IMG/VR virus record: IMGVR_UViG_3300011994_000001
Coordinates: 1 to 53,011 of that record
DNA length: 53,011 bases
DNA from: a virus
Reading direction: 5' to 3' (one strand)
Part shown: one piece after another, positions 12,978-43,080 of the stretch
How positions within the stretch are numbered: the first letter of the stretch is position 1
How the letters are laid out: every line of letters begins with the position of its first letter
Notes under the pieces: model-generated
Told to the model about the DNA's origin: nothing
Databases searched by the model: none
Seen by the model: the letters and a program-made list of their open reading frames with translations, nothing else
Translations under genes and position numbers: made by a program

Positions 12978-13006
12978 TTTACTTACCCGCTATCTTAGTA
13001 TATACT
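12978..13006 (+). promoter_or_regulatory. Early promoter 1 (TTTACT-17-TATACT)
   Basis: The -35 box TTTACT is at 12978-12983 and the -10 box TATACT at 13001-13006, spacer 17 bp. It drives the helix-turn-helix and primase-helicase genes. Confidence 0.8.
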
Positions 13007-13032
13007 AGGTTATATAGTGAAAGGAGGACGTT

Positions 13033-13236
13033 ATGGAGGATTTAAAACTATACGCCCGAGGGGAGAGACACCATTCAGCTAAACTAACCAAGGATCAAGT
13101 AATTGAAATTAGGCGACGATATGCTACTAAACTAACGACTATGGTCTCTTTAGCAGAGGAGTTCAAAGTAAGTTATATATCCATATCGGCTATTATCCAC
13201 CGTAAAACTTGGAGACACCTAAAGGAGGAGAGATAA
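13033..13236 (+). CDS. Small helix-turn-helix DNA-binding protein
   Basis: A 67-residue protein. After GERHHSAKLTKDQVIEIRRRY comes a classic helix-turn-helix, VSLAEEFKVSYISISAII, then HRKTWRHL. This is the DNA-binding module usually found at the end of phage HNH endonucleases, here without a nuclease domain. It is the first early gene, 230 bp from the iterons and 120 bp from the ACTTTCAC repeats, so it may bind either set as initiator or regulator. The GGAGG ribosome site is clear. It is followed four bases later by the primase-helicase. Confidence 0.75.
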   Translation: MEDLKLYARGERHHSAKLTKDQVIEIRRRYATKLTTMVSLAEEFKVSYISISAIIHRKTWRHLKEER

Positions 13237-13239
13237 CAA

Positions 13240-15423
13240 TTGACGTTAGAAGAGTTTGATCAACTAATAGGACATCTAGGTCAGTATGTAAAATGCGGGT
13301 CGCCAACTACGCTCTTGGACAGAGAGTTACCGCTAAATCAGCAGAAACTGTACAAGAAACGTCTTGGGAAGCAGTTTTTCTCTCTGGAGGAATGTCAGAA
13401 GTGGCTAGCAGATTCTACGTTAGACAACGGTAAATGTATCGGTTGGTGGATACCTACAGGATATGTAGTAGCAGACGTGGATCAGAAGGGGCTGGTCTCT
13501 AACAAGATAGCCAAGGCTCTCAATATAAAGACGCTAAAGATCAAGACTTTCAAAGGCGTACACTTTGTATTCTCAACTCCAGACAAATTTGTACAAAACG
13601 CTGGCACGTTCCCATTTGGACTAACAGGAGATTTCAAGATAGGCGGGAGCGGGTATATTACTCTTCCATTTGGAGCTCACGCCCGAGAAATGAATCGTAA
13701 GTTTCTCAACAAGATTCCACCCGTCCCACTACCTCTTGAGTTTACCATATGGCCCAAGTATGATAACTCGTTAGCAGGTAAGATCGAAGGAACTCGAAAC
13801 AACGCCCTATTTGAGCAGATGTGCGAATACAAGGGTAGAGGAGCCTCAGACGATCAGATACGAGCTATGGCTCCTCTTATTAACCGTTATGTATTCGATG
13901 ATCCTTGGCCTGACGATGAAGAAGCCAACGAAATTGCCGAGAAAGTTATTCTCAAGCCTGACGTGACTATGCGACATGTAAAGAATCCATACTTATTTTA
14001 TACGCCGAAGAAAGATGCCGAGGACGTTGCTAGCGGGGTAAATCAACCTGCTATTGTACGGAGGATAATTGAAGACAACGATACTATTGTACTAGGCAAC
14101 GGTCTGGGAGGTTGCTTCAGTTATGTTAACGGTAGATTCATCGACGACAACACTTTGACCCTGGAGGAGAAGGTGGACGCCTTAATAGACAACGAGCGGT
14201 TATGTAAGGCAGGAACTGACGCGGAGGTTATCAAAAAGATACTTAGAAGTAAAGAACTCCAGAAAGATTCTTTTGAGCTAAACACGTTTAAAAAACTTAT
14301 CAACTTCAGGAACGGTATGTGGGACATAACCAAGAAAACCTTAGTTCCCCACGATCCAAAGTATCTATCAACAGTACAGATAGATCGAAACTGTCCTGAG
14401 TCTATAGACAGCATAACTAAGCAACCTTTCTCAGATTACGGTCTTAGACAGGGTCTAACCAAGACGTATATATACAAGATGCTTAATGAGAAATATCTAT
14501 TGGACGGAGCGACTATCAGGGTTATATTTGAGTTTATGGCATATTCTATGACTATTGAGAACGGTCTGAAGACGTCCGTCATATTGCTAGGTCCGAGTAA
14601 CACGGGTAAGACTACCTTGCTCAAAGTATTCTATGGCGTAGTCGGAGGAACCGAGAATTATTCGACGGTAACTATGGAGGATTTGAGCGGTCAGTTCGAT
14701 ACTAGCGCAGTAGTCAATAAGACCTTAAATGCGTCAGGAGAGAACAGCTCCAAGCCCCTAGAGGATATAACCAACTTCAAGATTATTACTGGTAATGATA
14801 CGGGCACGATAGAGCAAAAGTATCGTGCTAAGGTTAAAGCTAAGTTCTTTGCTAAGTGTATATTCTGCTATAATACATTACCTACTCAGAAAGGCGAACC
14901 GTCAGATGCGTTCTTCAACCGCCTGAGAATACTATCTTTGTTAAACGTACTATCCAAAGACTCAGTTCCTCAAAACATAATAGACAGTTTTGAGGAACCT
15001 GATGGAGAACCCATAGTTGAGATTACGCCCTACTTATTGGATATGCTTCCTTTGGAGGTTATATCAAATACAGCTCATAGCAGGAAGAGCGTACAAGAAA
15101 TGCGGAGCGACAGTAACAGCGTGTTCTCCTTCGTAAACCATATGTGTATACTAGGTAGTCAGAAAGAACATCAAATGCCTAAGCAAGAGCTAGAGCAAAG
15201 ATACTCTGCGTATTGTGCAAAGAATTACAAAGAATCGGGGCTAACCCCTAGAGAACTCAAGAAGAAACTAGCAGAATTGGGGGTATTAGCAAAGAAAGAG
15301 ACAGGAACAGGAAGAGCTGTATACAAGGGTATAAGCTTCAAAAAACCTACTGTATTCACTCCTCTTGCTACGGTAACGGATATCCATACCAAGGAGGTAT
15401 TGCTAGACTTTACAAACGCTTGA
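13240..15423 (+). CDS. Primase-polymerase / D5-type SF3 helicase
   Basis: A 727-residue replication protein starting at TTG 13240 with AAAGGAGG upstream. Residues 1-200 resemble a bifunctional primase-polymerase domain: GWWIPTGYVVADVDQKG (metal-binding Asp pair) and FKGVHFVFSTPDK, then GSGYITLPFGAH. The C-terminal helicase has Walker A near residue 449 (LLGPSNTGKTTLL), the D5_N region before it (FRNGMWDITKKTLVPHD) and the SF3 features KCIFCYNTLPTQK and FFNRLRIL. It should synthesise primers and unwind DNA at the nearby origin. Fused prim-pol and SF3 helicase is typical of plasmid and phage replication proteins. Confidence 0.85.
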   Translation: MTLEEFDQLIGHLGQYVKCGSPTTLLDRELPLNQQKLYKKRLGKQFFSLEECQKWLADSTLDNGKCIGWWIPTGYVVADVDQKGLVSNKIAKALNIKTLKIKTFKGVHFVFSTPDKFVQNAGTFPFGLTGDFKIGGSGYITLPFGAHAREMNRKFLNKIPPVPLPLEFTIWPKYDNSLAGKIEGTRNNALFEQMCEYKGRGASDDQIRAMAPLINRYVFDDPWPDDEEANEIAEKVILKPDVTMRHVKNPYLFYTPKKDAEDVASGVNQPAIVRRIIEDNDTIVLGNGLGGCFSYVNGRFIDDNTLTLEEKVDALIDNERLCKAGTDAEVIKKILRSKELQKDSFELNTFKKLINFRNGMWDITKKTLVPHDPKYLSTVQIDRNCPESIDSITKQPFSDYGLRQGLTKTYIYKMLNEKYLLDGATIRVIFEFMAYSMTIENGLKTSVILLGPSNTGKTTLLKVFYGVVGGTENYSTVTMEDLSGQFDTSAVVNKTLNASGENSSKPLEDITNFKIITGNDTGTIEQKYRAKVKAKFFAKCIFCYNTLPTQKGEPSDAFFNRLRILSLLNVLSKDSVPQNIIDSFEEPDGEPIVEITPYLLDMLPLEVISNTAHSRKSVQEMRSDSNSVFSFVNHMCILGSQKEHQMPKQELEQRYSAYCAKNYKESGLTPRELKKKLAELGVLAKKETGTGRAVYKGISFKKPTVFTPLATVTDIHTKEVLLDFTNA

Positions 15424-15443
15424 TTATACCAACAATTTATATC

Positions 15444-15470
15444 AGACCGCTTTGGCGGTCTTTCTTTTTG
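15444..15470 (+). terminator. Intrinsic terminator after primase-helicase
   Basis: GACCGC-TTTG-GCGGTC hairpin followed by TTTCTTTTT. Confidence 0.85.
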
Positions 15471-15501
15471 TAAAATACCCAATAAATATCCAAGATATCT
15501 A

Positions 15502-15530
15502 TTTACTTATCCAAGAAAGTATTATATAAT
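15502..15530 (+). promoter_or_regulatory. Early promoter 2 (TTTACT-17-TATAAT)
   Basis: TTTACT is at 15502-15507 and TATAAT at 15525-15530, spacer 17 bp, with a perfect -10 box. The predicted transcript starts at about 15537. Confidence 0.85.
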
Positions 15531-15536
15531 AAGGTT

Positions 15537-15662: not shown

Positions 15663-15680
15663 AGAAAGAAGGAATGCAGG

Positions 15681-17347: not shown

Positions 17348-19669
17348 ATGAAATCTCCGATAACTGTACTCAAGCCCGAGTATTCATACCTGAAGATGAC
17401 TCCTAACAATTCGATAAAGAATATTCATACGGACAAGATCGCTCTAGCAATAGGTTCTCTTCAAACGTCCTTCGCGGTAAGGATAACAGCGGGTTTTGCC
17501 CCGCCTTTTCTTTTCAAGCTTATTCCTTATCGTTGGTCTATTTCTGTTCCTGCTAAGACATCTTTCTATGTGTACCTCCATAACCAATCTGCTGAGTTCT
17601 ACTTCGTTGTTCCTACCCTCTCACTATCGATTATCAAAGAGAAGATCAGGTCTGTATGGCCCACGGTAACAATGTCTATTGTAGATCGTCTTCCGCTCCT
17701 CCCCGATGATTCTACCAAGTATTCTTTGTTATATACCCAAGAGGACGCCTTGTCTTTAGCGTCAAAGCGATCTGATAACGATTTGATAAACTCCTCATTG
17801 AATACTATCTCCTCGCTGGAAGAAGACGATGAGGCGGGAATATTCTACAACTTTATACCGACGTCTCAGAAAGGGTGGAGGGCTAACTATAAGAATACAA
17901 TAAGTAAGATTAAACAGAACCAGCCTACAGACAAGGAGAAGTTTAACCTATCAGACTTTAGGACTTATCTGTATATACTCAGGGTTCTATCATCCATACT
18001 ACAGTCTATATCAAACGATATATCAAACATATCTGCTTATAAAGTTACCAAGACAGCTACCAATTATGACGCTTATCCCCAGAAACTTAATGTATCCGAG
18101 GATACCCGCAAGAAGAACAACCAACACGTAGTTGATACTCAGATAGTTGTTATGTCCAAGTCCTCCTCACCGCTACGTCAACATAACAATGCTAAGTCAC
18201 TGGCTCAGAGCTTTTTGGTACTTAGTGAACCTGAGGGTGGAAACTCCCTTAGATACAAGAGATATCGCAAAAGTTTCAAACCGCTCGCATATTCTCTACC
18301 CGTCGAACGTAACAAGATGTCTACCTCTGAGTGTCAGAGCTTTATATCGTTACCAGGGAGAGAGCTGCTAGAGAGATTCCCTCATATACAGAAAACTGAT
18401 ACTCAAGAAACCCTAGTGCCTATTGACCTACGTCAAGGAGTTATGTGCATAGGTAAGAACAAGTACAGGGGTAGCGAACAAAAGGCGTACTTATCTACAG
18501 ATCAAGAGTACCAGCAGTTAACCCTGGTAGTTGTAGGACCTACCCGAGCGGGTAAAACTACGTTGATTGGATCTCTTGCACAGGACGCTATAAATAATCA
18601 AGAGTGCGTTATTATGTTTGACTTCGTTGAGAACTGCGAATCGTCCTCCGAGGTAGCCCAAAAGTTTACAAAAGACAAAACGCTAGTCATATCCTGTGCC
18701 GATATCGAGTGCCTGCAGGGGCTAGGTTATAATGAATCTGCTTCCGTTAGTAGTAACCCCCTAGATGTGTATATAACCGCTAAGAGACAGACTACGCAGC
18801 TTCTGGCATTAATTAATTCTATTAATACGGAGGATAAAGTACTGCCTCCTAAAATGGAGCGGTATCTTACCTGTGCGTCATTGATAACTTTCTGCCAAAA
18901 TGGCAGTATCAAGGATGTATTTGACGTATTGACTAATCACCTCGTAAGAGCGAGATACGTCAGACATAATAGCTCCGATCAAAAAGAGAACCTGGAGGAA
19001 TACGTTATGGGTCTTAGAGAGCTTGACGAAGTAGATAAGACTGGAGAGGTAACAGGAACCAAGTTCAGTGCTATAGCGGGCGTAATGGATAGACTTCAAA
19101 AGTTAAAGAGCAACCCTTATATGGAGCTTATGCTAAAGAAAGATACCCAGGGTAACCTAAACTTAATCGAGGAGATACAGAAGCCCCAGTTGATCGTATT
19201 ACAAATGCCCGAGAAGATGTTTGGGACAGATGAGGAACGAGACACGTACTGTATATATTGGATGACTAAGATATGGCTTGCCTTACAGTTACGAGCCGAT
19301 ATACTCAAGGATAAATCAACCCGTACCAAAGTCAATCTTTTTATCGATGAGCTGTATCAAGTACATCATACAGAGGAGTTTCTCAAAGAAAAGTTGTCCA
19401 GACTTGCTAAATTCCGCTTGAAACCAATTATCTCCTGCCACTATCTTAATCAAATCAAGATTATTCGCGACGAACTCCGATCTGCTAATGCGTCCTACAT
19501 GCTGATATCGGGTTGCGATAAGAAGAACTTCCAGGAATTAAAGGAGGAGCTGTACCCATTTGATACAGAGGATTTATTGTCGTTACCAAGATTTCATAGC
19601 ATGAACCTAATCAAGTCAAAAGGCGGGTACGAGCGGTTTATCACGGATTTGACGAATATTGGAAAATAA
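17348..19669 (+). CDS. VirD4/HerA-type conjugation ATPase
   Basis: A 773-residue protein. Residues 1-380 are a non-conserved N-terminal part with a hydrophobic patch (GFAPPFLFKLIPY). The last 390 residues are an AAA-type DNA-translocase core with Walker A near 394 (VVGPTRAGKTTLIG), then CVIMFDFVENCE, Walker B near 663 (LFIDELYQV) and the sensor region KPIISCHYLNQ. This order matches the type IV secretion DNA-transfer ATPases of Gram-positive conjugative elements (TraG/VirD4, HerA superfamily). Just before the P-loop is a 'pre-motor' strand (LSTDQEYQQLTL) as in that family. No relaxase or VirB4 is present in the window. It is the largest gene of the cassette. Confidence 0.7.
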   Translation: MKSPITVLKPEYSYLKMTPNNSIKNIHTDKIALAIGSLQTSFAVRITAGFAPPFLFKLIPYRWSISVPAKTSFYVYLHNQSAEFYFVVPTLSLSIIKEKIRSVWPTVTMSIVDRLPLLPDDSTKYSLLYTQEDALSLASKRSDNDLINSSLNTISSLEEDDEAGIFYNFIPTSQKGWRANYKNTISKIKQNQPTDKEKFNLSDFRTYLYILRVLSSILQSISNDISNISAYKVTKTATNYDAYPQKLNVSEDTRKKNNQHVVDTQIVVMSKSSSPLRQHNNAKSLAQSFLVLSEPEGGNSLRYKRYRKSFKPLAYSLPVERNKMSTSECQSFISLPGRELLERFPHIQKTDTQETLVPIDLRQGVMCIGKNKYRGSEQKAYLSTDQEYQQLTLVVVGPTRAGKTTLIGSLAQDAINNQECVIMFDFVENCESSSEVAQKFTKDKTLVISCADIECLQGLGYNESASVSSNPLDVYITAKRQTTQLLALINSINTEDKVLPPKMERYLTCASLITFCQNGSIKDVFDVLTNHLVRARYVRHNSSDQKENLEEYVMGLRELDEVDKTGEVTGTKFSAIAGVMDRLQKLKSNPYMELMLKKDTQGNLNLIEEIQKPQLIVLQMPEKMFGTDEERDTYCIYWMTKIWLALQLRADILKDKSTRTKVNLFIDELYQVHHTEEFLKEKLSRLAKFRLKPIISCHYLNQIKIIRDELRSANASYMLISGCDKKNFQELKEELYPFDTEDLLSLPRFHSMNLIKSKGGYERFITDLTNIGK

Positions 19670-19702
19670 TTAAAATTCTTTTGGAATTTATCAATAAAAG
19701 GC

Positions 19703-19731
19703 TTTACTTTGTATCCAAGATATAGTATGAT
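19703..19731 (+). promoter_or_regulatory. Early promoter 3 (TTTACT-17-TATGAT)
   Basis: TTTACT is at 19703-19708 and TATGAT at 19726-19731, spacer 17 bp. Confidence 0.8.
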
Positions 19732-19771
19732 AAGGTTGTAGAGATAAATAAACGAGAGCGAGGAAACAAAA

Positions 19772-20129: not shown

Positions 20130-20158
20130 TTTACTTTTCGCGGAAACAGGTATATTAT
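20130..20158 (+). promoter_or_regulatory. Early promoter 4 (TTTACT-17-TATTAT)
   Basis: TTTACT is at 20130-20135 and TATTAT at 20153-20158, spacer 17 bp. Confidence 0.75.
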
Positions 20159-21018: not shown

Positions 21019-21528
21019 ATGTTAATATGCGCGAGGGCTTATACAGGTAAACAGCAAAGGAGTATGATACAGCCAAAGATATTTTGTAACCTATCTGGGT
21101 GCTACTGCCAGTATACCGAATGGTCAAGAGGTACCTACGACCAAGCTGAATCTTGTATAGAGTGCCCGAGATACCTTGGTGAGGAAGAGCTTGATTATGC
21201 TGATGTAGCGTTACAGAAAAAGTGCAGACTTATTATGGAGGACGCAACAAGTTTAGTAGCCTCCCTTAACAGTAATCCTACGCCAAAGATAAAGCGACCA
21301 AGCTTTAACTCAGTTATCCAAGGAAACGCCGATAACTTGAGTGCGCTCACCGGAGAGCTTATGGCGTCAAAGTCTAAACAGCGGAAAGAAGAACACACAA
21401 AGGAGAAACTTAATGTGCAAGAGTTGAGGGAAGTACAAGATGCGGAGTTGTGCAAAGGAGAGTCAAGAAACTTCTACCCAACAAGGACTACCGCCAAAAG
21501 TCGTTACGCAGAGGGCGAGTATTCATGA
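21019..21528 (+). CDS. Hypothetical protein with N-terminal Cys cluster
   Basis: A 169-residue protein. ATG 21019 has GAGGAGGG nine bases upstream. Residues 20-50 contain CNLSGCYCQYTEW and CIECPRYLGEEEL, likely a zinc site. The remainder is charged and probably helical. The gene ends at the TGA of an ATGA overlap with the amino-acid:DNA transferase-like gene, so they are translationally coupled and may work together. Function unknown. Confidence 0.55.
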   Translation: MLICARAYTGKQQRSMIQPKIFCNLSGCYCQYTEWSRGTYDQAESCIECPRYLGEEELDYADVALQKKCRLIMEDATSLVASLNSNPTPKIKRPSFNSVIQGNADNLSALTGELMASKSKQRKEEHTKEKLNVQELREVQDAELCKGESRNFYPTRTTAKSRYAEGEYS

Positions 21529-22517
21529 AGAATAGACCTGCGGATGTTCCTTATTGCGGGGTAAGAGAGGATAAGATCAAGAACGCAAAGCCCGTATTGA
21601 ACGAGACCAACTTCAAGTACTTGTTCGATTTCATAACGCGTAGGTATCGTATCCATAAAAAGAAAGACGTCAAGAAGTTACCCGCTCCGTGGACGAAAGA
21701 CCCGATACTGCGAGACTACAAGTTCACGAATGTTCGGAGAGAACACGACAGAGAATCTTTATGGCTTATCAAGAACATAGCCGAAAATGACTATCTTAGC
21801 TACGAAGACAAGCTGATGAATATTATCCTCTTTAGGATGTTTAACAAGTCGGACACCTCCTCAATAATCGGTCTGATACAATTCTCTACGTTTGATATTA
21901 TCAAGAAGAGTATCGAGGACAGGTTGAGACGGAAAGCGGAGAATACGCCTGACTATATATTCTTTACCAACGCCTTTCTTACCTGCGGTCTCAAAGTAGC
22001 TCTTGGGAATAACCCCGAAACTACTGACGAGTTTATGCCTATGAGGGTTATCAAGTTTATCGAGGTCTTGTACAAGGACGGTATCGTGGATAAGATCAAG
22101 AAAGCTAAAGATCAAAAAGCGGTCTTTGAGGTAGTCAAGAGCTACAAGGGGTTAGGAGAGTTTCTGAGCTATCAAATATTTGTAGATTTCACTTATATCC
22201 ACGACTTCCCATTCTCAGAGAATGAGTTTACAATATCGGGTCCAGGATGTATACGAGGGCTAGACAACGTCTTTGACGATAGGGACGGGATGACTCACGA
22301 CGAATGTTTATTCTGGTTACGGGATAACTTACACATGGAGTTCTTCGATAGAGGTTACAAATATGACCCTATCAAGCTATATAGCGACCTGCCGATGAGC
22401 GACAGGAGAACAAACGTAATGTCCTTGGAGAACATTCACTGTGAGTTGAGTAAGTATATCCGAGCGAGGAACGGCACGGGCGGTCCAAGAAACCGCTATA
22501 AACCGAGAGGATTATAA
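21525..22517 (+). CDS. DNA base hypermodification protein (amino-acid:DNA transferase-like, HMUDK_hel type)
   Basis: A 330-residue protein; ATG 21525 with GAGGGCGAG upstream. The signature near residues 54-80 (PAPWTKDPILRDYKFTNV, then RREHDRESLWL) is that of the helical domain of 5-hydroxymethyl-dU hypermodification proteins (Pfam HMUDK_hel, related to the alpha-glutamyl/putrescinyl-thymine pyrophosphorylases). The helical stretch YKGLGEFLSYQIFVDFTY and the FTISGPGCIRGLD site near residue 260 also fit this DNA-glycosylase-like fold. Family members act on DNA after replication and replace the pyrophosphate on hydroxymethyl-uracil with an amino acid or amine. Together with the proteins at 30517 and 33037 it points to base hypermodification. 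Confidence 0.7.
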   Translation: MKNRPADVPYCGVREDKIKNAKPVLNETNFKYLFDFITRRYRIHKKKDVKKLPAPWTKDPILRDYKFTNVRREHDRESLWLIKNIAENDYLSYEDKLMNIILFRMFNKSDTSSIIGLIQFSTFDIIKKSIEDRLRRKAENTPDYIFFTNAFLTCGLKVALGNNPETTDEFMPMRVIKFIEVLYKDGIVDKIKKAKDQKAVFEVVKSYKGLGEFLSYQIFVDFTYIHDFPFSENEFTISGPGCIRGLDNVFDDRDGMTHDECLFWLRDNLHMEFFDRGYKYDPIKLYSDLPMSDRRTNVMSLENIHCELSKYIRARNGTGGPRNRYKPRGL

Positions 22518-25555: not shown

Positions 25556-25584
25556 TTTACTTTAATAGGTATATAGGTTATACT
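25556..25584 (+). promoter_or_regulatory. Early promoter 5 (TTTACT-17-TATACT)
   Basis: TTTACT is at 25556-25561 and TATACT at 25579-25584, spacer 17 bp. It drives the recombination operon 25634-29380. Confidence 0.85.
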
Positions 25585-26134: not shown

Positions 26135-26146
26135 GCAGAGTAGCCT

Positions 26147-26162
26147 GGGGGTGACTACCCCC
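26147..26162 (+). repeat. GGGGGT/ACCCCC hairpin after the charged-repeat gene
   Basis: A 6-bp stem (26147-26152 with 26157-26162) with a GACT loop. Only two Ts follow, so termination is doubtful. Confidence 0.4.
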
Positions 26163-29380: not shown

Positions 29381-29396
29381 TCAAGGACTACTTGGG

Positions 29397-29431: not shown

Positions 29432-29460
29432 TTTACTTTTTGAAGAAAGTATAGTATACT
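29432..29460 (+). promoter_or_regulatory. Early promoter 6 (TTTACT-17-TATACT)
   Basis: TTTACT is at 29432-29437 and TATACT at 29455-29460, spacer 17 bp. It drives the modification operon. Confidence 0.85.
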
Positions 29461-29503
29461 ATTACTGTAGGGCGAATACACTAGTAAGTTGAGGAGGAGA
29501 GTT

Positions 29504-30505
29504 ATGTTAAATGTTAGATCCATCGAACACGGCAGAGGTACTATCCAGGGTATAAAATTTCTGATTGAGGGCAAGGATACGTTGGTAATTACCAGTCAAT
29601 CCGCTTGGTCATCGCTTAGAAAACTGTTGGCTTTTGGACCCGTAAATGTATTTTCAGCTACCTCTGTATCTCAGAAGAGTTTGGACGAGTTACTCGCTAT
29701 GTCTAAGAGGTTCAAGACCATTATCGGTATCGGGGGAGGTATGGTAATTGACTCAGCTAAGTACGTTGCTTGGATTACTGGAGCTAGACTTGTTCTTGTT
29801 CCTACTGTGTTATCAACTAACGCGTTTGCTACGGAAGCAATAGGCGTTCGTACCGAGGAAGGCAAAGTAGTGTATGTAGGTAACTCTCGTGCTGATAAGC
29901 TTATTGTAGACTTCGATCTGTTGAGAATGTCTCCCCCAGCGTTAAACTACTCAGGTACAGTAGACGTACTATCTTGCCATACAGCTACCCGAGATTGGGA
30001 GATAGCGGTTGAAGACGGAGTACTGAGTCACCCCTTAGACCTTCAGGCAGGTCGCAAAGCCCGCCAATTAGTGAACCGTATAGATAACTACTCTGAAGAC
30101 ATTAGAGAGCTTACGGACATCGGTTTGAAGGTCTTATTAGACTGCTTGCTAGATACCGCTGAGATATGTCAACCGCTAGGACACTACCGAGCGGAGGAAG
30201 GATCAGAACACTTCTTATTTTACGCTATCGAGAAGATACTCAAAAGACCGTTTATCCACGGTCAGATAGTAGGCCTGGGAATACAGATTATGAGTAGTCT
30301 ACAGGTAAACAGTACCAACGATATATCCTGTGTTATGAAGGATATCGGTCTTAATATAACCCCTAAGTCAATGGGTATTACCAAGGACGTTCTTAGACAA
30401 GCTTTGGTTGATCTTAGGACGTATCCTCAACCCTGGCATACGATTATTGATAGGGGTATATCAGATAGTTTTATCGAGCAAACGTTGTATTATTTGGAAT
30501 TCTAG
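29504..30505 (+). CDS. Metal-dependent dehydroquinate synthase / glycerol-1-phosphate dehydrogenase-like enzyme
   Basis: A 333-residue protein (ATG 29504; the upstream frame is the AGGAGG site itself). It has the fold signature of the DHQ synthase / iron-alcohol dehydrogenase superfamily: nucleotide-binding GIGGGMVIDSAKYVA near 73-87, LVLVPTVLSTNAFATEA, and metal ligands Asp154 (GTVDVLS), His236 (GSEHFLFYAIE) and His252 (FIHGQIVGLG). All ligands are present, so it should be active, using NAD and a polyol phosphate, keto-acid or alcohol. It opens the modification operon, 11 bases before the amino-acid:DNA transferase, so a role in preparing or altering the base substituent is likely. Its substrate cannot be read from sequence. 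Confidence 0.75.
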   Translation: MLNVRSIEHGRGTIQGIKFLIEGKDTLVITSQSAWSSLRKLLAFGPVNVFSATSVSQKSLDELLAMSKRFKTIIGIGGGMVIDSAKYVAWITGARLVLVPTVLSTNAFATEAIGVRTEEGKVVYVGNSRADKLIVDFDLLRMSPPALNYSGTVDVLSCHTATRDWEIAVEDGVLSHPLDLQAGRKARQLVNRIDNYSEDIRELTDIGLKVLLDCLLDTAEICQPLGHYRAEEGSEHFLFYAIEKILKRPFIHGQIVGLGIQIMSSLQVNSTNDISCVMKDIGLNITPKSMGITKDVLRQALVDLRTYPQPWHTIIDRGISDSFIEQTLYYLEF

Positions 30506-30516
30506 GAGGTTGTGTT

Positions 30517-31470
30517 ATGGATCTGTATAATATACACGGGGATACGGGCGGGGATTGGAGAATGAACAAGTTCAAAGAGTATTGCGACGGAGATATTGAC
30601 GACACGCTTGCTCCTATGAACTGGTTACTCAAAAAGGCGGGGGCTAATCGAGGAGATAGAATATGGGCGTCATTTCTCTATTCTACCTGCTATTGCCTAG
30701 GAACAACGATGTTTATGTATAACGAGTTATTCTATGGTACGCTGACACCCAGGAAATTAGACGAATTCTGGGAGGACTACAAAAAAGATCTGGTATTCCA
30801 AACAGACCGTAAGTACGCGAAGAATCTAAACTGGTTTGTGCCTATGGTAGTTCAGTTTATGGCTAAGACCAAGAGAGACCCAGAAAAGTACTTCAGACCG
30901 CTTCTAACAGGTACGCCCGAGGAAGTATACCGTAAGATGTACAAAGAGGTTTCAGGATGGAAGTTCTTTGGACGATTCTCCACGATACTATTCCTCAAGA
31001 CCCTCATATCTATTCTCCCTATCGAAATGGACTTTGATACAGAGTACGATTGGGCTAATGGAGAAACCACTACCGCGGGGGCTCTTATCTTACACTACCG
31101 CGACGAAGAAGCCAAACAGTTTCTCCTAGATCATAAGATCACGCCTGACATGAAGAAGTATTTTGACGAGTTACTGGAAGAGTGTAAAGGCAAGATAGCG
31201 GGTAATATGCTCCATACCTCATCCGCTTTTTGTAGTCACTTTAAATTATACAAAGAGCAAAGGTACCTTGGATATTACGTTGATCGAGGTCAACACGAAC
31301 TTAGAACTCTACAAAAGAACCTACCTCAAGCTCACGAGCTGTGGGACCGAATATGGATAGCCCGAAGAAGGACTATTGATTGGAAGTATCTTGGGGAGAT
31401 CAACGGTTGGGCTGGTACAAGACCTGAGAAGTGTCATGACTTTATGAAAACTGGAAGGATGTATGAATAA
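30517..31470 (+). CDS. Amino-acid:DNA transferase-like protein (thymine pyrophosphorylase clade 2 type)
   Basis: A 317-residue protein. RGDRIWASFLYSTCYCLGTT near 45-64, VFQTDRKYAKNLNWFV and GWKFFGRFSTILFLKTL near 145-165 recall the amino-acid:DNA transferase (alpha-glutamyl/putrescinyl thymine pyrophosphorylase clade 2) family of hypermodifying phages. These proteins swap the pyrophosphate of pyrophosphorylated hydroxymethyl-uracil in DNA for an amino acid. The basic RRRTIDWKY end fits DNA binding. Stop and next ATG overlap (TAATG). It is the second such protein in the genome. I rely on remembered family patterns, not an alignment. Confidence 0.65.
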   Translation: MDLYNIHGDTGGDWRMNKFKEYCDGDIDDTLAPMNWLLKKAGANRGDRIWASFLYSTCYCLGTTMFMYNELFYGTLTPRKLDEFWEDYKKDLVFQTDRKYAKNLNWFVPMVVQFMAKTKRDPEKYFRPLLTGTPEEVYRKMYKEVSGWKFFGRFSTILFLKTLISILPIEMDFDTEYDWANGETTTAGALILHYRDEEAKQFLLDHKITPDMKKYFDELLEECKGKIAGNMLHTSSAFCSHFKLYKEQRYLGYYVDRGQHELRTLQKNLPQAHELWDRIWIARRRTIDWKYLGEINGWAGTRPEKCHDFMKTGRMYE

Positions 31471-31643
31471 TGACAGACGCTATAAAAGATACCAAAATTA
31501 ATCTTTGTTCTACTTGCGCGTTTGAGATTCCTTCTTGCGAAGCTAGTCCTGAAGATATTGAGTTCGGCGACGGTCTGAGTAATGATAATGTAATACTTTG
31601 TAAGCATTATGAGCTGGAAGAAGGAATTGTTTATGAGCAATAA
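31470..31643 (+). CDS. Small Cys-containing protein in the modification operon
   Basis: A 57-residue protein (MTDAIKDTKINLCSTCAFEI). Cys pairs CSTC, then SC and CKHY are compatible with one metal site, as in other small proteins here that contain the 'CSTCAFEIPSCEA' pattern. Start overlaps the previous stop; its end overlaps the start of the glycosyltransferase. Function unknown. Confidence 0.6.
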   Translation: MTDAIKDTKINLCSTCAFEIPSCEASPEDIEFGDGLSNDNVILCKHYELEEGIVYEQ

Positions 31644-32601
31644 TGAATGGCAAGAAGGCAAGCCTTATCGAACTGAGAAAATTAGCAGAAAGGTAGCGGG
31701 ACGAAAGCTTGAGATTCCAATTTGTATCCCGTCCTACGGTAGACCCGACTCAGCTATGTTCAAGATTTTAGAGAAAGAACCCGATCTGCCTATGGTTTTC
31801 TTTATCCGAGAGGAGCAGAAAGAGCTGTATGCAGGATTGAAGGGCAAAGCCCGTATAGTTACTCTAAAGAACGTGGATAACATAGGACAGACCCGAGCTA
31901 AGATTGTAAAGTGGGCTCATAAGCAGGGTTACGAGAATATATTTATGTTTGACGATAAAGTAACCGCTGTAAATGCCCTCGCTCCTAGACTTAGCAGGAA
32001 CGATAATTGGTCGATGAGCAAGTTTACTACGACGATGTATCAAGCTCTTCAAGTTTGGGAATACCTTATCAGAAAGTACAAACCCTGCATGTCAGGAGGT
32101 CTCCACAAAGGATTCAGTTTCTCCCCAGGTAACATCAACGCTGAGCCTGAGATAGCCCCGGGTATATGGTGCGCTATACAACTTAACGTCGATATGTTGT
32201 CTGAGAATGATATTAACTACCGAGACAGTAATATATACGGTCACGAGGATAACATAATGGAGATAGAGGTTATGCAGAAGCGTCTAAAGCATATTTGCTT
32301 CAAGGATATCGAGTTTGATAACATACCTTCCTCCGACAAGTATACGGGCGGGATTCAGGATACGTGCCCCGAGAGCGAGACTAGACTGGAACGGGTAAGT
32401 AGACTATCTGATCTTGTAGAGAAGTTCGTAGGCAAGGGTCACCCTGGAATAATATTTTATACTTGGAAAGACGGAGCGAGATATGTGCGCATGAATTGGA
32501 AATACTGGAGAAAGCATTACTCCGAAGAACCTAAATTGACTAAGAAACAAATCGATCGTTTTAACGTATTGAAATTGTCGGAGGTATCCAAGGATGAGTA
32601 G
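31633..32601 (+). CDS. TET-associated-type glycosyltransferase (GT-A fold)
   Basis: A 322-residue protein; ATG 31633 chosen for the AAGGA nine bases upstream. It has a GT-A N-terminus (IPICIPSYGRPDSAMF), the LKNVDNIGQTRAKIVKWA helix with its conserved Asn-Ile-Gly-Gln-x-Arg, and the metal-binding MFDDKV near residue 107. The acceptor part carries NIYGHEDNIMEIEVM. This layout matches the TET/JBP-associated glycosyltransferase family, which attaches sugars to hydroxymethyl bases in DNA. No TET enzyme is present, so the target is likely the base made by the 34305 enzyme or a further modified form. It lies in one operon with transferase and HAD genes. Confidence 0.65.
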   Translation: MSNNEWQEGKPYRTEKISRKVAGRKLEIPICIPSYGRPDSAMFKILEKEPDLPMVFFIREEQKELYAGLKGKARIVTLKNVDNIGQTRAKIVKWAHKQGYENIFMFDDKVTAVNALAPRLSRNDNWSMSKFTTTMYQALQVWEYLIRKYKPCMSGGLHKGFSFSPGNINAEPEIAPGIWCAIQLNVDMLSENDINYRDSNIYGHEDNIMEIEVMQKRLKHICFKDIEFDNIPSSDKYTGGIQDTCPESETRLERVSRLSDLVEKFVGKGHPGIIFYTWKDGARYVRMNWKYWRKHYSEEPKLTKKQIDRFNVLKLSEVSKDE

Positions 32602-32992
32602 AATATTGGATCAAGCAGAGTACGATTCTCTCCCTAAAATTGCGGCGGTAGACTTCGATGGAACCCTGGCTATTGTAAAAAACTATCGAGGAACTGGCGT
32701 TGCTAATCGCCTAGTAATGGATAGGGTCAAGAGACTGCAGAAAGAGGGCTGGAAGCTTATCCTATGGACCTGTAGAGACGATGAGAACGAGGACATGGAG
32801 TTGACGTCTGCGGTACTATTCTGTGCAAAACACGGGCTATTCTTCGATGCGGTCAACGAGAATATCAAGGAAGTTCAAGACCTTATGGAAGGAGATACGC
32901 GAAAGATATATGCTAACGTGTACATTGACGATAAGTCAATAGTAGACTGGGATAAAATATTACCTTTACTTTTAGAGGAAAGAGTAGTATAA
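32594..32992 (+). CDS. HAD-family phosphatase, copy 1
   Basis: A 132-residue HAD hydrolase with motif I at residues 20-24 (DFDGT), WKLILWTCRD (motif II with Thr) and VYIDDKSI (motif IV Asp pair). There is no cap domain. A closely similar domain ends the protein at 35364-36011 (WKVILWTCRD, FDAVNENIKEV in both). It likely removes phosphate from a nucleotide or sugar-phosphate in the modification pathway. The start overlaps the glycosyltransferase by eight bases. Its 3' end contains the promoter of the kinase operon. Confidence 0.75.
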   Translation: MSRILDQAEYDSLPKIAAVDFDGTLAIVKNYRGTGVANRLVMDRVKRLQKEGWKLILWTCRDDENEDMELTSAVLFCAKHGLFFDAVNENIKEVQDLMEGDTRKIYANVYIDDKSIVDWDKILPLLLEERVV

Positions 32993-32993
32993 T
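32965..32993 (+). promoter_or_regulatory. Early promoter 7 (TTTACT-17-TATAAT), inside the HAD gene
   Basis: TTTACT is at 32965-32970 and TATAAT at 32988-32993, spacer 17 bp, overlapping the last codons of the HAD gene. It drives the long kinase-to-helicase operon 33037-38786. Confidence 0.8.
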
Positions 32994-33036
32994 TGAGTTG
33001 TTGAGGGAATAGAATATAGGTTAGAGAGGAGCGAAC

Positions 33037-33654
33037 ATGAAACTACTTGTAAATATACGCGGGACAAACGGAGCGGGAAAATCCACGATACCTATGGCTA
33101 TGCTAGACGATCCAAAGATGCACGTTGTAGGATGCGGGTACAAGGCTGAGAAGCCCTGTGCCCCGTGGCTAACTGTATTTCCTACCTACGGATGGGTTGC
33201 CTTGGGTACGTACCGAGCTAAGACGGGCGGGATGGATACTATGTCGACCAACGCTGATATAGCCTTTGCTCTAGCTACCGCTTGGGATAGATACCCAGAG
33301 AGAGATATACTAATGGAGGGTATCATAGCCTCAACGATTAAGTCCACTTATGCCGAGCTTTTTGGTAATTACCAGTCTATGGTAGACGCGGAGGAAGTTA
33401 CCCCGAGGAAGATCGTAATTATGTCGTTTGTACCGCCCTTGGAGGTATGCCTATCCCGAGTTCAGGAGCGTAACGGGGGAAAACCTGTTAAAGAGGACGC
33501 AATAGCTGGTAAGTGGAGAACGGTAGACCGAAACGTGCAGTACTTCAAAGATATGGGATTTACATCCTTGCGGATAGATAACTCCAATATCAAGAAGGAA
33601 AGTATGTTCAAGAACTTCTTGCGAACTTGTGATAAGTACCGAGAGGAGGACTAG
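33037..33654 (+). CDS. P-loop kinase, 5-hydroxymethyl-pyrimidine DNA kinase-like
   Basis: A 205-residue protein opening with NIRGTNGAGKSTI, residues 6-18 (Walker A GTNGAGKST), the start typical of 5-hydroxymethyl-dU DNA kinases of hypermodifying phages. These enzymes phosphorylate the hydroxymethyl group in DNA before the amino-acid:DNA transferase acts. Other features are DILMEGIIAST (Walker B region) and IVIMSFVPPLEVCLSRVQER. A nucleotide-monophosphate kinase would be the alternative. GAGAGGAG lies before the ATG. Confidence 0.65.
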   Translation: MKLLVNIRGTNGAGKSTIPMAMLDDPKMHVVGCGYKAEKPCAPWLTVFPTYGWVALGTYRAKTGGMDTMSTNADIAFALATAWDRYPERDILMEGIIASTIKSTYAELFGNYQSMVDAEEVTPRKIVIMSFVPPLEVCLSRVQERNGGKPVKEDAIAGKWRTVDRNVQYFKDMGFTSLRIDNSNIKKESMFKNFLRTCDKYREED

Positions 33655-33656
33655 AC

Positions 33657-33758
33657 TTGAGAGTTTGTTCTAACTGTACGCGCTCTTGGTATTGCGAATA
33701 TGCTACTAACCAGATAATATGCTTTAAATACGAGTCAACTCGTAAGTACCGTGTGTAA
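33657..33758 (+). CDS. Small Cys-rich protein (TTG start)
   Basis: A 33-residue protein with a perfect AGGAGG nine bases before TTG 33657. It has CSNCTRSWYCEY and ICFKYE, four Cys, likely a zinc knuckle. Function unknown. Confidence 0.5.
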   Translation: MRVCSNCTRSWYCEYATNQIICFKYESTRKYRV

Positions 33759-33957
33759 GCACGAATGGTCCTCTCTTGGAGGTAACCGACCTAAACGCTG
33801 TATACTCTGCGGAGAGTACGAGCAGAAGCCTAAAAACAACTTCCATATAGGTAATAAGAGGAGGAGAGTAATACATGATAGCCTACCAAGAAACTCCCGA
33901 GCAACAGACGCGAGTAGAAGCCCAAGCACTAGAGGAGCTAGCTCTTACCATGATTAG
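33751..33957 (+). CDS. Small zinc-finger-like protein (tentative)
   Basis: A 68-residue frame starting at GTG 33751, within the end of the previous gene and overlapping the next gene by 80 bases. The first 30 residues (CKHEWSSLGGNRPKRCILCG) are a typical short zinc motif; the rest runs through the next gene's ribosome site and start and may be non-native. Translation would depend on coupling. Confidence 0.4.
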   Translation: MCKHEWSSLGGNRPKRCILCGEYEQKPKNNFHIGNKRRRVIHDSLPRNSRATDASRSPSTRGASSYHD

Positions 33958-34282
33958 TCAATTTGAAAAGAAGAATGTTGCGTACGGCAACGCTTTTGGT
34001 AATCAGTTTCAGAAGTACGGTCCCATAGCAGGTCTTCAAAGGCTAGCTGATAAGTTCTCCCGTATTGAAGCTCTTATGCTAGGAGCTCAGAACGGAGTTC
34101 CAGATGAGAGCTTGGAGGATACGCTAATGGATAGTGCTTGCTACGCTCTTATGGTTATCTACGAGCTACGGAGAAAGAAGAAGCTTGAGGAAGAAGATTC
34201 CTTTGTTCCAAACCGCGCTAAACAACCTCCCAAGCCCGCTAAACAACCTTGGGTGGAGAGAATGGAAAACGGCGAACTGTAG
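33875..34282 (+). CDS. DUF1599 / nucleotide-modification-associated domain 1 protein
   Basis: A 135-residue protein. KNVAYGNAFGNQFQKYGPIAGL, then LADKFSRIEALML and DESLEDTLMDSACYALMVIYEL, is the all-alpha DUF1599 pattern (named nucleotide modification associated domain 1). It is often next to phage thymidylate-synthase-type genes, as here (23 bases to the next start). Its role in pool control or modification is not known. AGAGGAGGAG precedes the ATG. Confidence 0.7.
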   Translation: MIAYQETPEQQTRVEAQALEELALTMISQFEKKNVAYGNAFGNQFQKYGPIAGLQRLADKFSRIEALMLGAQNGVPDESLEDTLMDSACYALMVIYELRRKKKLEEEDSFVPNRAKQPPKPAKQPWVERMENGEL

Positions 34283-34304
34283 AAGATAAGAGGAGGGAAT
34301 AAAC

Positions 34305-35009
34305 ATGGGGTATTTAATTGCTAATAACGCTACTCAAGCTTGGGAAAGTTTGTATTATCAACTAAAAAATCAAGCTAGAAACGGGTTTTTACAACCGTCC
34401 CGAGCGGGAAATGTAGTAGGAGAAATCATAAACGCTGTAACAGTAATCAAGAACCCTCGCCAGGGTATCGTAGAATCCAAGATAAGAAATATGTCTATAA
34501 AATACGCTCTTGGAGAGTTACTTTGGTATATGTCGGGCAGTAACCGCTTGAGCGATATCTCTCCTTACTCTAAAGCTTGGGAAGGTCTATCAGACGATGG
34601 GGAGACGGTAAACTCAGCGTATGGGTACAGAATAGGTTCTATGTTTGGATTTGATCAGTACTCCTACGTGAGAGATATGCTACACAGAGACCCTTTATCG
34701 CGTCAGGCTATTATCCATATTAAAGACCCTAGTGAGAAGATAACTAAAGACACTCCTTGTACCCTGTCACTCCAATACCTCTTGCGGGACGGAAAACTGC
34801 ACGCTACCACGGTAATGCGATCAAACGATATTTGGCTTGGGTTCCCTTATGACGTATTCGCTTTTACCTCTCTACAGGTGATGATGGCTATGGAGCTAGG
34901 GGTAGACGTGGGAGAGTATACCCATATAGCTGGATCGCTACACTTGTACGAACGAGATTTGAAAGGGGCTGTAAACGTTGGAACTACACAAGATAGCGAT
35001 AAAAGTTGA
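34305..35009 (+). CDS. Thymidylate-synthase-family pyrimidine hydroxymethylase
   Basis: A 234-residue ThyA-family protein: catalytic Cys152 (TPCTLSLQY), phosphate site (SRQAIIHI), MRSNDIWLGFPYDVFAFT and HIAGSLHLYERDL. The position equivalent to the dUMP-reading Asn177 of E. coli ThyA is Asp183, the change seen in T4 dCMP hydroxymethylase and related enzymes. It ends about 25 residues early and lacks the usual ThyA C-terminal tail that closes over folate. This points to a hydroxymethylase, giving 5-hydroxymethyl-dCMP or -dUMP, the first step of hypermodification. The ATG has AGAGGAGGG upstream. Confidence 0.75.
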   Translation: MGYLIANNATQAWESLYYQLKNQARNGFLQPSRAGNVVGEIINAVTVIKNPRQGIVESKIRNMSIKYALGELLWYMSGSNRLSDISPYSKAWEGLSDDGETVNSAYGYRIGSMFGFDQYSYVRDMLHRDPLSRQAIIHIKDPSEKITKDTPCTLSLQYLLRDGKLHATTVMRSNDIWLGFPYDVFAFTSLQVMMAMELGVDVGEYTHIAGSLHLYERDLKGAVNVGTTQDSDKS

Positions 35010-35313
35010 AGGCAGAAAAGGAGATAAGAACTGGGTTCACTTCTGCTATATCCCGCCCGAGCTAAAGGACGAGTTTGACTCCAAAGTTGAGGCGGACCCT
35101 AGATGGGTTATTAAATGGGCAAACGAGGATTTTGGTATGGGCATAGGCGAAGTTATGACCGAGATAGAACTGGATCAACTCCGAGAGCTTATCAAGGAAC
35201 GGTATCAACGATTGTACCCTGATCTTTATATCGAAAGTCAGACCGATAATCAAGGTTGGGTACGAGTTTGGATGATATCTAATATGAGGAGCGAGATCGC
35301 CAAGCGCGGTTAA
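34978..35313 (+). CDS. Hypothetical protein overlapping the hydroxymethylase gene
   Basis: A 111-residue protein starting at TTG 34978 with AAAGGGG ten bases upstream, overlapping the previous gene by 32 bases. It is charged and rich in aromatic residues (YIPPELKDEFDSKVEADPRW, LYIESQTDNQGWVRVWMI). No family recognised. Coupled translation suggests joint function with the hydroxymethylase. Confidence 0.6.
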   Translation: MELHKIAIKVEGRKGDKNWVHFCYIPPELKDEFDSKVEADPRWVIKWANEDFGMGIGEVMTEIELDQLRELIKERYQRLYPDLYIESQTDNQGWVRVWMISNMRSEIAKRG

Positions 35314-35363
35314 ACTACCAGGGTACAGGGCACGAATATGTAGCCCAAGAGGAGGAAATAAGT

Positions 35364-36011
35364 ATGACATGCGGTAATACTATTGATTGTAGAGACTGTG
35401 AGGATAGATATAAATGCGGGCCAGCTGTGGGTATGATAGGAGATTACACAACTAAAGAGTATGAAAAAATGAAAGCCCGTAAATCGTCTGTTAGTACTGA
35501 TATCGATTATTCAAGACGCTGCGGAGAGTTTGGACATTCTGATGCTATGAATAGGGCTAGTTGCGTATCTTGCAGTATGCACGCGATAGAGTTGTACAAA
35601 GCTTGCTTAAATAAAAAACACGCTGGGGTTACCCCGAAAACGTACAAAGATAAACCCAAAGTTGAGAAACAACATATGGATAAGCTACCAAGTATATTAG
35701 CGGTAGACTTCGATGGAACTCTCGTTCACGATGACTATCCCTTGATTGGTAAGGCTAGAACGGAGGTATTTGACCTTGTAAGAACGTATATCCACAGAGG
35801 TTGGAAAGTTATCTTATGGACTTGTAGGGATCACGAATGGTTAGCTAGTGCCGTTGACTATTGTAGGAACCAGGGTCTAGAGTTTGACGCTGTTAACGAG
35901 AATATCAAAGAGGTCAAGGAAATGTTCGACAACGATACCCGTAAGGTGTTTGCTAATATTTATATTGACGATAAATTTTTGTTTGTAGAAGGTGTTAATA
36001 ATGCCTCTTGA
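35364..36011 (+). CDS. Cys-rich N-terminal domain fused to HAD phosphatase, copy 2
   Basis: A 215-residue protein. Residues 1-75 hold about eight Cys in pairs (CRDCEDRYKC, CGEFGH, CVSC), likely a zinc domain. Residues 108-210 are a HAD hydrolase with DFDGT at 115-119, WKVILWTCRD and IYIDDKF. The HAD part is a paralogue of 32594-32992, with FDAVNENIKEV identical in both. The zinc domain probably recruits it to DNA or a partner. Good AGAGGAGG before the ATG. Confidence 0.72.
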   Translation: MTCGNTIDCRDCEDRYKCGPAVGMIGDYTTKEYEKMKARKSSVSTDIDYSRRCGEFGHSDAMNRASCVSCSMHAIELYKACLNKKHAGVTPKTYKDKPKVEKQHMDKLPSILAVDFDGTLVHDDYPLIGKARTEVFDLVRTYIHRGWKVILWTCRDHEWLASAVDYCRNQGLEFDAVNENIKEVKEMFDNDTRKVFANIYIDDKFLFVEGVNNAS

Positions 36012-38793: not shown

Positions 38794-38822
38794 TTTACTT
38801 TTGTAGGAAATAGGAGTATACT
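38794..38822 (+). promoter_or_regulatory. Early promoter 8 (TTTACT-17-TATACT)
   Basis: TTTACT is at 38794-38799 and TATACT at 38817-38822, spacer 17 bp. It drives 38859-40212. Confidence 0.8.
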
Positions 38823-40236: not shown

Positions 40237-40267
40237 AAAATTCTTTTGGAAAAACCATCAAAAGGGC

Positions 40268-40296
40268 TTTACTTTCCAGTCAAGATATAGTATGAT
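40268..40296 (+). promoter_or_regulatory. Early promoter 9 (TTTACT-17-TATGAT)
   Basis: TTTACT is at 40268-40273 and TATGAT at 40291-40296, spacer 17 bp. Confidence 0.85.
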
Positions 40297-40341
40297 AAGG
40301 TTGTAGGAGAGCTACGAACGATAAGAAAGAGGTAATGCAGG

Positions 40342-40926: not shown

Positions 40927-40967
40927 GGCGCAAGCCCTCTCCCCGTTGGGGAAAATAATTTTTTCAA
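40925..40967 (+). terminator. Double hairpin terminator
   Basis: AGGGC-GCAA-GCCCT (40925-40938), then CCCC-GTT-GGGG (40941-40951), then an AAAATAATTTTTT tail. Confidence 0.75.
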
Positions 40968-40972
40968 GGGGC

Positions 40973-41001
40973 TTTACTTATTGAAGTAATGGGTATATAC
41001 T
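40973..41001 (+). promoter_or_regulatory. Early promoter 10 (TTTACT-17-TATACT)
   Basis: TTTACT is at 40973-40978 and TATACT at 40996-41001, spacer 17 bp. Confidence 0.85.
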
Positions 41002-41041
41002 AAGGGTGTAGAGAGATTATCAAGGAAAGAAGGACTGCGGG

Positions 41042-41851: not shown

Positions 41852-41858
41852 GCCCCTT
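41842..41858 (+). terminator. Hairpin overlapping the stop codon
   Basis: GGGGCT-GTA-AGCCCC followed by TTCCG; weak as a terminator. Confidence 0.45.
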
Positions 41859-41900
41859 CCGCGCTCCTGAAAATAATTTTAAATTCTTTTGTAAAAACGC

Positions 41901-41929
41901 TTTACTTCTTGAAGTAAAAGTAGTATGAT
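41901..41929 (+). promoter_or_regulatory. Early promoter 11 (TTTACT-17-TATGAT)
   Basis: TTTACT is at 41901-41906 and TATGAT at 41924-41929, spacer 17 bp. Confidence 0.85.
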
Positions 41930-41968
41930 AAGAATGTAGAGAGATTACAAAGAAAGAAGGAACGCGGA

Positions 41969-43009
41969 ATGAAACCTGTATACTTAACTCCTGAACTAGC
42001 TAAAGAGATTGGGGTCCAAAAGATCACGAGAGTTGAAACTAAGTATCTGGAGATAACAGTCGGAGGTAAACCAGTAATCAGAACTCTCTCCCTTAACAAG
42101 GATGGATCGGGATACTTTAACTTTAACAAAGTCGGATACTTGATCGAGAATTGCCTGAGAGTTGTTCCTGAGTTAGAAGGTAAGACCGTAACAAAAACGG
42201 TAGAAATAGCCCCTAGAATCAAGGAAGTGGATTTCTCCCCCGTTGTACCCGAGGTAGATAAAACTAAACACGCGAAACACGAGAAAATTAAAATCTGCGT
42301 TAAAAACGATATTCCTGTATACTTAGTAGGCGAAGCAGGAACTGGTAAGAACTATACCCTGGAGCTTATCGCTAAAGAGCTGGACCTAGACTTCTACTTC
42401 ACTAATAGCGTCCAACAAGAGTATAAGATCACTGGATTTATCGACGCTGGCGGTAAGTACCACGAAACTGAATTCTACAAAGCTTTTACGAAGGGCGGAC
42501 TTTTCTTCCTTGACGAGATTGACGCTAGTATCCCCGAGGTTCTGGTTCTACTAAATGCGGCAATAGCTAATCGCTACTTTGAATTTCCTACTGGTAAAGT
42601 AAACGCTCACCCAGACTTCCGAGTAGTATCCGCTGGTAATACCTCAGGGTCAGGATCAAACGAGCTATACACGGGAAGACTGGTATTGGATTCCGCTACC
42701 CTGGACCGTTTCGTAATTATCGACTTTGATTACGATAAGAACGTGGAACTGCACTTAGCAAAAGGAGATACTCACCTGGTAAACTTCGTGAGATCGCTCC
42801 GAGAGTTCTCAAAGAAATCTGGAATCAGAGCTACCTTCTCTTACCGCTGTATAATGACCGTAGTCAAGCTAGAAAGAGCGGGAATGGACCTCAAGAGTAT
42901 ACTGGAGATTGCGGTAGTCAAGGGAATGGATCAAGATACGATTAGCACTCTCAAAGTAGTTGACGCTGGAAAATATTTCTTCGCTTTAAAAGAGCTTCAA
43001 GTTGCTTAG
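41969..43009 (+). CDS. MoxR-type AAA+ ATPase
   Basis: A 346-residue protein with a 100-residue phage-specific N-terminus and an AAA+ core: Walker A near 120 (LVGEAGTGKNYTL, Asn in place of the usual Ser/Thr), Walker B near 177 (GGLFFLDEID), sensor DFRVVSAGNTSG and Arg-finger region LDSATLDRF. MoxR-type ATPases act as chaperones or remodel complexes, often with the DUF7192-type partner at 41042. The replacement of Thr by Asn in the P-loop is worth noting. Confidence 0.78.
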   Translation: MKPVYLTPELAKEIGVQKITRVETKYLEITVGGKPVIRTLSLNKDGSGYFNFNKVGYLIENCLRVVPELEGKTVTKTVEIAPRIKEVDFSPVVPEVDKTKHAKHEKIKICVKNDIPVYLVGEAGTGKNYTLELIAKELDLDFYFTNSVQQEYKITGFIDAGGKYHETEFYKAFTKGGLFFLDEIDASIPEVLVLLNAAIANRYFEFPTGKVNAHPDFRVVSAGNTSGSGSNELYTGRLVLDSATLDRFVIIDFDYDKNVELHLAKGDTHLVNFVRSLREFSKKSGIRATFSYRCIMTVVKLERAGMDLKSILEIAVVKGMDQDTISTLKVVDAGKYFFALKELQVA

Positions 43010-43017
43010 TAGAATAG

Positions 43018-43039
43018 GCGGGAGCAATCCCGCTTTTCT
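43018..43039 (+). terminator. Intrinsic terminator
   Basis: GCGGGA-GCAA-TCCCGC followed by TTTTCTC. Confidence 0.8.
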
Positions 43040-43051
43040 CTAAAATAACTC

Positions 43052-43080
43052 TTTACTTCTTGAGGAAAATATTATATACT
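43052..43080 (+). promoter_or_regulatory. Early promoter 12 (TTTACT-17-TATACT)
   Basis: TTTACT is at 43052-43057 and TATACT at 43075-43080, spacer 17 bp. Confidence 0.85.

Follow-up and report, generated by a model that had tools for sequence, protein, structure and literature searches.

At the early promoters of phage T4, a GTTTAC -35 element follows A-rich sequence located at -40 to -44; the host sigma-70 polymerase reads these TTTAC promoters with no phage factors (PMC1524935, PMC2988021). Kayvirus early promoters are of the sigma-A type and are likewise present in many copies with 17-bp spacing, with a TATANT -10 box, a TTGACW -35 and a TRTGN extension (PMC7698491). Here we analysed a 53,011-base virus record, IMGVR_UViG_3300011994_000001 (the window), in which TTTACT is followed, after exactly 17 bp, by TAT..T at twelve sites. 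These sites resemble the T4 early promoters in their TTTAC -35, 17-bp spacing, TATAAT-like -10 and many copies before early genes, and perhaps in an upstream A-rich stretch, but differ in having C at -36 (10/12 sites) where T4 has G, and in lacking the GT-rich TGn motif that precedes the T4 -10. They share spacing, sigma-A type and multiplicity with the promoters of the Kayvirus phage K, but neither the TTGACW -35 nor the TRTGN extension. We consider it highly probable that this phage uses the twelve sites as its early promoters, which the host sigma-A polymerase reads and which belong to the TTTAC class familiar from T4. As such they would be ordinary in kind, host-read early promoters with the T4 spelling, and very likely functional.

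All twelve positions reported in the first-pass annotation proved exact, and all are on the plus strand (Table 1). The pattern TTTACTT-N16-TATNNT occurs in the window 12 times on the plus strand and never on the minus strand, as had been claimed, and neither reversed-pattern control gave any match. A looser search of both strands for TTTACT-N17-TANNNT found 15 matches against 1.46 expected from dinucleotide shuffles; the three extra matches (5426 and 14225 on the minus strand, 27028 on the plus) fall outside the class, that at 27028, for example, scoring 6.1 bits. With TTTACT held fixed on the plus strand, TAT..T was found 13 times at a gap of 17 and not once at 16 or 18, while TTGACA or TTGACT never occurs in the window with TAT..T at 17 bp. 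Scanning with a position matrix gave 21.7-38.0 bits for the twelve sites and 10.8 bits for the next best in the window; because the matrix was trained on the same sites, which favours their own scores, what counts is the distance to the next site. Since nothing else rises above 10.8 bits, the fixed box and spacing are not an artefact of the search pattern.

TTTACT and the T that follows it are invariant, as are the TAT and final T of the -10 box and the 17-bp spacer (12/12 in each case). The bases before the -10 are AG, TA or GT, the spacer tends to contain GAA or GGAAA, and at 4-9 nt upstream of the -35 A or T is preferred, by up to 0.9 bit per position. A TTG lies 6-7 nt after the -10 (T at 11 and G at 9 of the 12 sites), and at most sites a start codon follows within a few tens of nucleotides of the -10. 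The site at 32965 overlaps the end of an open reading frame. The description 'usually behind a terminator' was an overstatement, as a terminator-like hairpin is found upstream of 5/12 sites (background 4%); at 40973 it ends 1 nt before the -35. Arbiol and colleagues, as cited in PMC4177764, reportedly described in 2010 terminator-promoter (PeSL) cassettes in T4-type phages, in which a terminator and then an early promoter lie between small genes, some of them duplicated; in the window the hairpin is present at only those five sites. Recent copying, also proposed for the sites, is supported for two pairs (promoters 3 and 9, and 10 and 11) and not for the remainder, which share little outside the boxes, most spacers and leaders having diverged.

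The plus-strand early block extends from about 12,978 to 44,116 and codes for replication, recombination and nucleotide genes, including primase, DNA polymerase A, exonuclease, a Sak4-like annealing protein and an SNF2 helicase. Because every gene of this block is on the plus strand, the plus-only orientation of the sites is expected. Head genes (below 12,201) and tail genes (above 44,446) are on the minus strand and, with the replication block on the plus strand, the record has the appearance of a circularly permuted siphophage genome whose early and late blocks diverge. Brevibacillus phages have a TerL 65% identical to that of the record, which suggests a host within the Bacillota.

Neither the polymerase nor the HMUDK protein alone recovered close relatives from viral contigs, and an exact promoter-plus-leader pattern had no match there; alignments were needed, and using an alignment of two polymerases as the query gave 36 loci. 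In five of these (L350, L361, L362, L363 and L237), with polymerases of 47-61% identity, a counterpart of promoter 5 lies right after the polymerase gene with CTTTACTT and the 17-bp spacing kept, a -10 of TATAAT, TAGAAT, TATACT or TATGAT, and a changed spacer and leader. Since position, -35 and spacing have been kept in five diverged relatives while spacer and leader sequence changed, the sites are very likely functional. The box is not absolute, as L355 and L360 have CTTGCA-like and TTTACA-like boxes at the post-polymerase place. A further relative (G006), coding for an HMUDK protein 64% identical to that of the window, has eight TTTACT sites forward, one reverse and no TTGACW sites. Relatives found through TerL have little in common with the window beyond TerL and gave no promoter signal of either kind, a weak control as these are late-gene regions. 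The motif offers a searchable early-promoter signature for a modified-DNA siphophage family.

Table 1. Positions of the twelve promoter sites and of putative modification genes in the window. At every promoter the -35 box is TTTACT and the spacer 17 bp.
Feature	Position	Strand	-10 box	Matrix score (bits)	Remarks
Promoter 1	12978..13006	+	TATACT	21.7	no spacer motif; precedes HNH-like small gene (13033) and primase (13240)
Promoter 2	15502..15530	+	TATAAT	34.2	hairpin terminator 40 nt upstream
Promoter 3	19703..19731	+	TATGAT	25.9	89% identity to promoter 9 over 46 nt (19696-19741 and 40261-40306)
Promoter 4	20130..20158	+	TATTAT	30.0	
Promoter 5	25556..25584	+	TATACT	24.4	directly downstream of DNA polymerase
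Promoter 6	29432..29460	+	TATACT	38.0	hairpin terminator 15 nt upstream
Promoter 7	32965..32993	+	TATAAT	36.2	overlaps end of open reading frame 32594-32992; precedes 5-hmdU DNA kinase gene
Promoter 8	38794..38822	+	TATACT	33.8	directly 3' of SNF2 helicase gene
Promoter 9	40268..40296	+	TATGAT	26.9	hairpin terminator 40 nt upstream
Promoter 10	40973..41001	+	TATACT	31.7	including leader, 73% identical to promoter 11 over 75 nt (40953-41027 and 41881-41955)
Promoter 11	41901..41929	+	TATGAT	33.3	-35 within inverted repeat TTTACTTC-TT-GAAGTAAA
Promoter 12	43052..43080	+	TATACT	36.8	hairpin terminator 17 nt upstream
HMUDK helical-domain / thymine pyrophosphorylase-like hypermodification gene	21450..22517	+			Pfam PF18723, E 5e-68; annotated homologue
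Amino acid:DNA transferase (ADDT)	30517..31470	+			Pfam PF18724
TAGT-like glycosyltransferase	31609..32601	+			Pfam PF20691, 25.7 bits, below cut-off of 27.5
5-hmdU DNA kinase, P-loop part	33037..33654	+			Pfam PF18748, E 1e-23
Thymidylate synthase family, presumed dUMP hydroxymethylase	34305..35009	+			PF00303; 33% to SPO1

Of the features of sigma-70/sigma-A promoters, the sites have a TATAAT-like -10 and a spacer within 16-18 bp, but not the TTGACA -35; as TTTACT matches this consensus at 4/6 positions, we file them as variant sigma-70/sigma-A promoters. The first-pass annotation had proposed recognition by host RNA polymerase together with a phage factor. The 17-bp spacing, the TATAMT boxes, the place before early genes and the retention in relatives all support the host polymerase. 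The phage factor is unsupported: the early proteins searched gave no match to sigma factor, MotA, AsiA or activator families, although several small proteins remain unassigned and leave room for one, and the box recurs in unrelated phages. Since no such factor was found and T4 TTTAC promoters use sigma-70 alone, recognition by host sigma-A is the simplest reading. Host polymerase with its housekeeping sigma would bind CTTTACTT as the -35 and TATAMT, 17 bp downstream, as the -10, aided by the A/T-rich stretch directly upstream of the -35, and transcription would begin at the G of the conserved TTG, some 7 nt downstream of the -10 box. Each promoter would drive a short plus-strand block of early genes, with some sites acting as terminator-promoter cassettes and the two similar pairs probably being recent copies, while the minus-strand late genes, without these promoters, would need another signal.

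Several features weigh against plain sigma-A promoters. The two mismatches to TTGACA occur with no TGn extension, a -35 box so invariant is unusual, and at part of the sites an inverted repeat over the -35, TTTACTT-N4-AAGTAAA, could be an operator. A phage-coded sigma or activator needed to read TTTACTT, possibly as a dimer on this repeat in the manner of MotA at T4 middle promoters, would account for the invariance of the box and for the repeat, which is complete or almost complete at 40973 and 41901. The repeat is very clear in another relative (G008, the contig of L236), where the -35 lies inside near-perfect 18-bp palindromes such as TTTACTTTTAAAAGTAAA (for example at 4303-4331 and 17354-17382), a possible operator or doubled -35 element. 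The first early gene of the window codes for a protein of 67 aa that has a weak HNH-type match and might be DNA-binding. However, the repeat is absent at 12978, 19703, 25556 and 40268, no sigma, MotA or activator family was matched in the proteins searched, the GCTT box that MotA-type middle promoters carry 11-13 bp upstream of the -10 is not at the sites, and each of the unrelated phages with this box would need a similar factor. We regard a dedicated phage factor as improbable.

The likeness of two pairs over 46 and 75 nt would also fit recent copies of one mobile promoter cassette, with constancy reflecting common descent and not function. This is very hard to reconcile with spacers and leaders that vary widely while both boxes stay fixed, and with the orthologous site kept in diverged relatives, and we give it little credence. 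Alternatively, TTTACTT might also serve as the run of T residues in a terminator that is fused to the promoter, with termination thereby shaping the -35. Some sites of phage EP75 have the -35 directly after a hairpin, as does Delftia phage phiW-14 (L157-L164), with nine TTTGCT-type boxes, all on the plus strand and most directly after a GC-rich hairpin, such that terminator and promoter look fused. In the window, only the hairpin at 40973 of the five touches the -35, and phage RB49 (L199-L207) retains TTGACA even though several of its TTGACA/TTGACG promoters have their 17-bp spacer filled by a GC-rich inverted repeat, for example TTGACAGGGGATCGGTGATCCCCTATACT. A -35 shaped by termination is, in our judgement, scarcely credible for these sites, and recognition by host sigma-A remains the reading that we prefer.

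The HMUDK domains, ADDT and thymidylate-synthase family protein of the window form a predicted thymidine-hypermodification set (Table 1), and we compared -35 boxes across phages without prior choice of box. TTTACT or GTTTAC/CTTTAC ranks first in T4 (GTTTAC 17 against 3.2 expected) and in the HMUDK-gene phages Aeromonas TSW001, Acinetobacter SH-Ab 15599 and EP75, with three sites in M6, and TTTGCT is the top -35 of phiW-14. TTGACA leads in RB49, C48C1, phage K (44 against 6 expected) and PQ006096. The last has its polymerase (48%) and further replication genes in common with the window, and tblastn found no modification gene in it. Both T4 glucosyltransferase families are absent from RB49 and RB43 by Pfam; RB69 also lacks them by Pfam and did not serve as a test case. 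The G in place of T at -33 in RB49, RB43 and Aeh1 has been tied to Alt and not to base modification (PMC1524935). A strict promoter pattern in viral contigs recovered a T4-like fragment (G005) with 12 TTTACT sites forward, one reverse and no forward TTGACW; it codes for a TET/JBP oxygenase and a TET-associated glycosyltransferase (TAGT), and window proteins had no match to it.

We then counted dereplicated sites against spacing-shifted controls in sets of loci, with modification predicted from genes and gene presence judged within the fetched flanks only. Across thirty HMUDK loci TTTACT was found 33 times against 5.1 expected and TTGACA 4 against 5.0; without Ackermannviridae-like contigs the values were 26 against 3.4 and 2 against 1.8. 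TET loci with TAGT gave TTTACT 15 against 2.9 and TTGACA 1 against 0.6, whereas those without it used both boxes (TTTACT 39 against 12.4, TTGACA 52 against 12.2). Fisher's test gave p 2e-4, p-values being guides only because neither the sites of one genome nor related genomes are independent. Split by gene, TTTACT and TTGACA numbered 29 and 30 in TET loci with ADDT, 9 and 19 with a GT1 glycosyltransferase, and 1 and 6 where none was found. The association between TTTACT and modification appears strong in the case of thymidine hypermodification, whereas TET phages give a mixed picture; it is a lead and not proof. The main counterexamples are two TET phages, L321 (10001-12801) and L320, that carry a GT1 glycosyltransferase beside the oxygenase yet have TTGACA promoters (9 and 4 sites); C48C1, which uses TTGACA, has TET, and tblastn found in it no relative of the TAGT of G005. 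The proposition that a bulky modification always goes with avoidance of TTGACA is weakened by the use of this box in TET loci with ADDT or GT1. Host lineage alone does not decide the box either, because T4, EP75 and RB49 all have Escherichia hosts and differ. The 7-deazaguanine phage 9g gave no clear signal, and SPO1, SBSphiC, PaMx11, LuckyBarnes, Sinatra and Vibrio 207E48.1 showed no TTTACT signal, the GC-rich ones having too few TAT boxes to judge. Neither box was found in SPO1, which is listed as a hydroxymethyluracil phage (PMC5977210).

We put forward tentatively, and with more doubt than belief, that TTTACTT arose convergently as a -35 element in phages with bulky pyrimidine groups, a spelling legible to host polymerase on modified incoming DNA, and that modification has reshaped promoter evolution in several unrelated lineages. 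Groups at the C5 position of a pyrimidine lie in the major groove, the face on which sigma region 4 reads the -35. In the template strand of TTTACTT (AAGTAAA) one base in seven is a pyrimidine, while in that of TTGACA (TGTCAA) three in six are, and because of this fewer modified bases would face sigma region 4, limiting clashes on both T- and C-modified DNA. In TET phages only some cytosines are modified, and the template-strand mechanism may be inapplicable to them. If the link is true, it would show how chemically armoured virus DNA stays readable to host polymerase. Full-text literature searches, of incomplete coverage, found no paper linking this -35 box to DNA modification, and the word 'promoter' appears nowhere in the phiW-14/SP-15 paper; the spread of the TTTACT -35 across modified-DNA phages is apparently unreported.

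Among the Ackermannviridae (Kuttervirus and others), which like the window have thymidine-modification genes but are myoviruses of about 150 kb, a TTTACTTCTTC-type -35 with 16-17 bp spacing was found in EP75, KpS110 and Coodle; TTTACTT is also the -35 in TSW001 and SH-Ab 15599. Work on ViI-like phages listed only eight TTGACA-type candidates, and its authors could not identify early promoters (PMC3184105); the present sites, which that work does not list as promoters, supply candidates for them. EP75, KpS110, Coodle and M6, of different families, have in common a TTTACTTCTTC(AATAA) extension of the -35.

In the window, the cluster at 29489-36011 codes for iron-alcohol-dehydrogenase-like, TAGT-like glycosyltransferase and phosphoheptose-isomerase-like proteins alongside ADDT and the 5-hmdU kinase, a gene content that suggests an undescribed, perhaps sugar-bearing, hypermodified thymidine. 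Between the divergent blocks, an AT-rich stretch (12440-12800) contains many TTACCG/CGGTAA repeats on both strands and is possibly a replication origin with iterons. Two early reading frames (25901-26147 and 29051-29393) end in long acidic Asp/Glu repeat tails, encoded by the DNA repeats D1 and D2.

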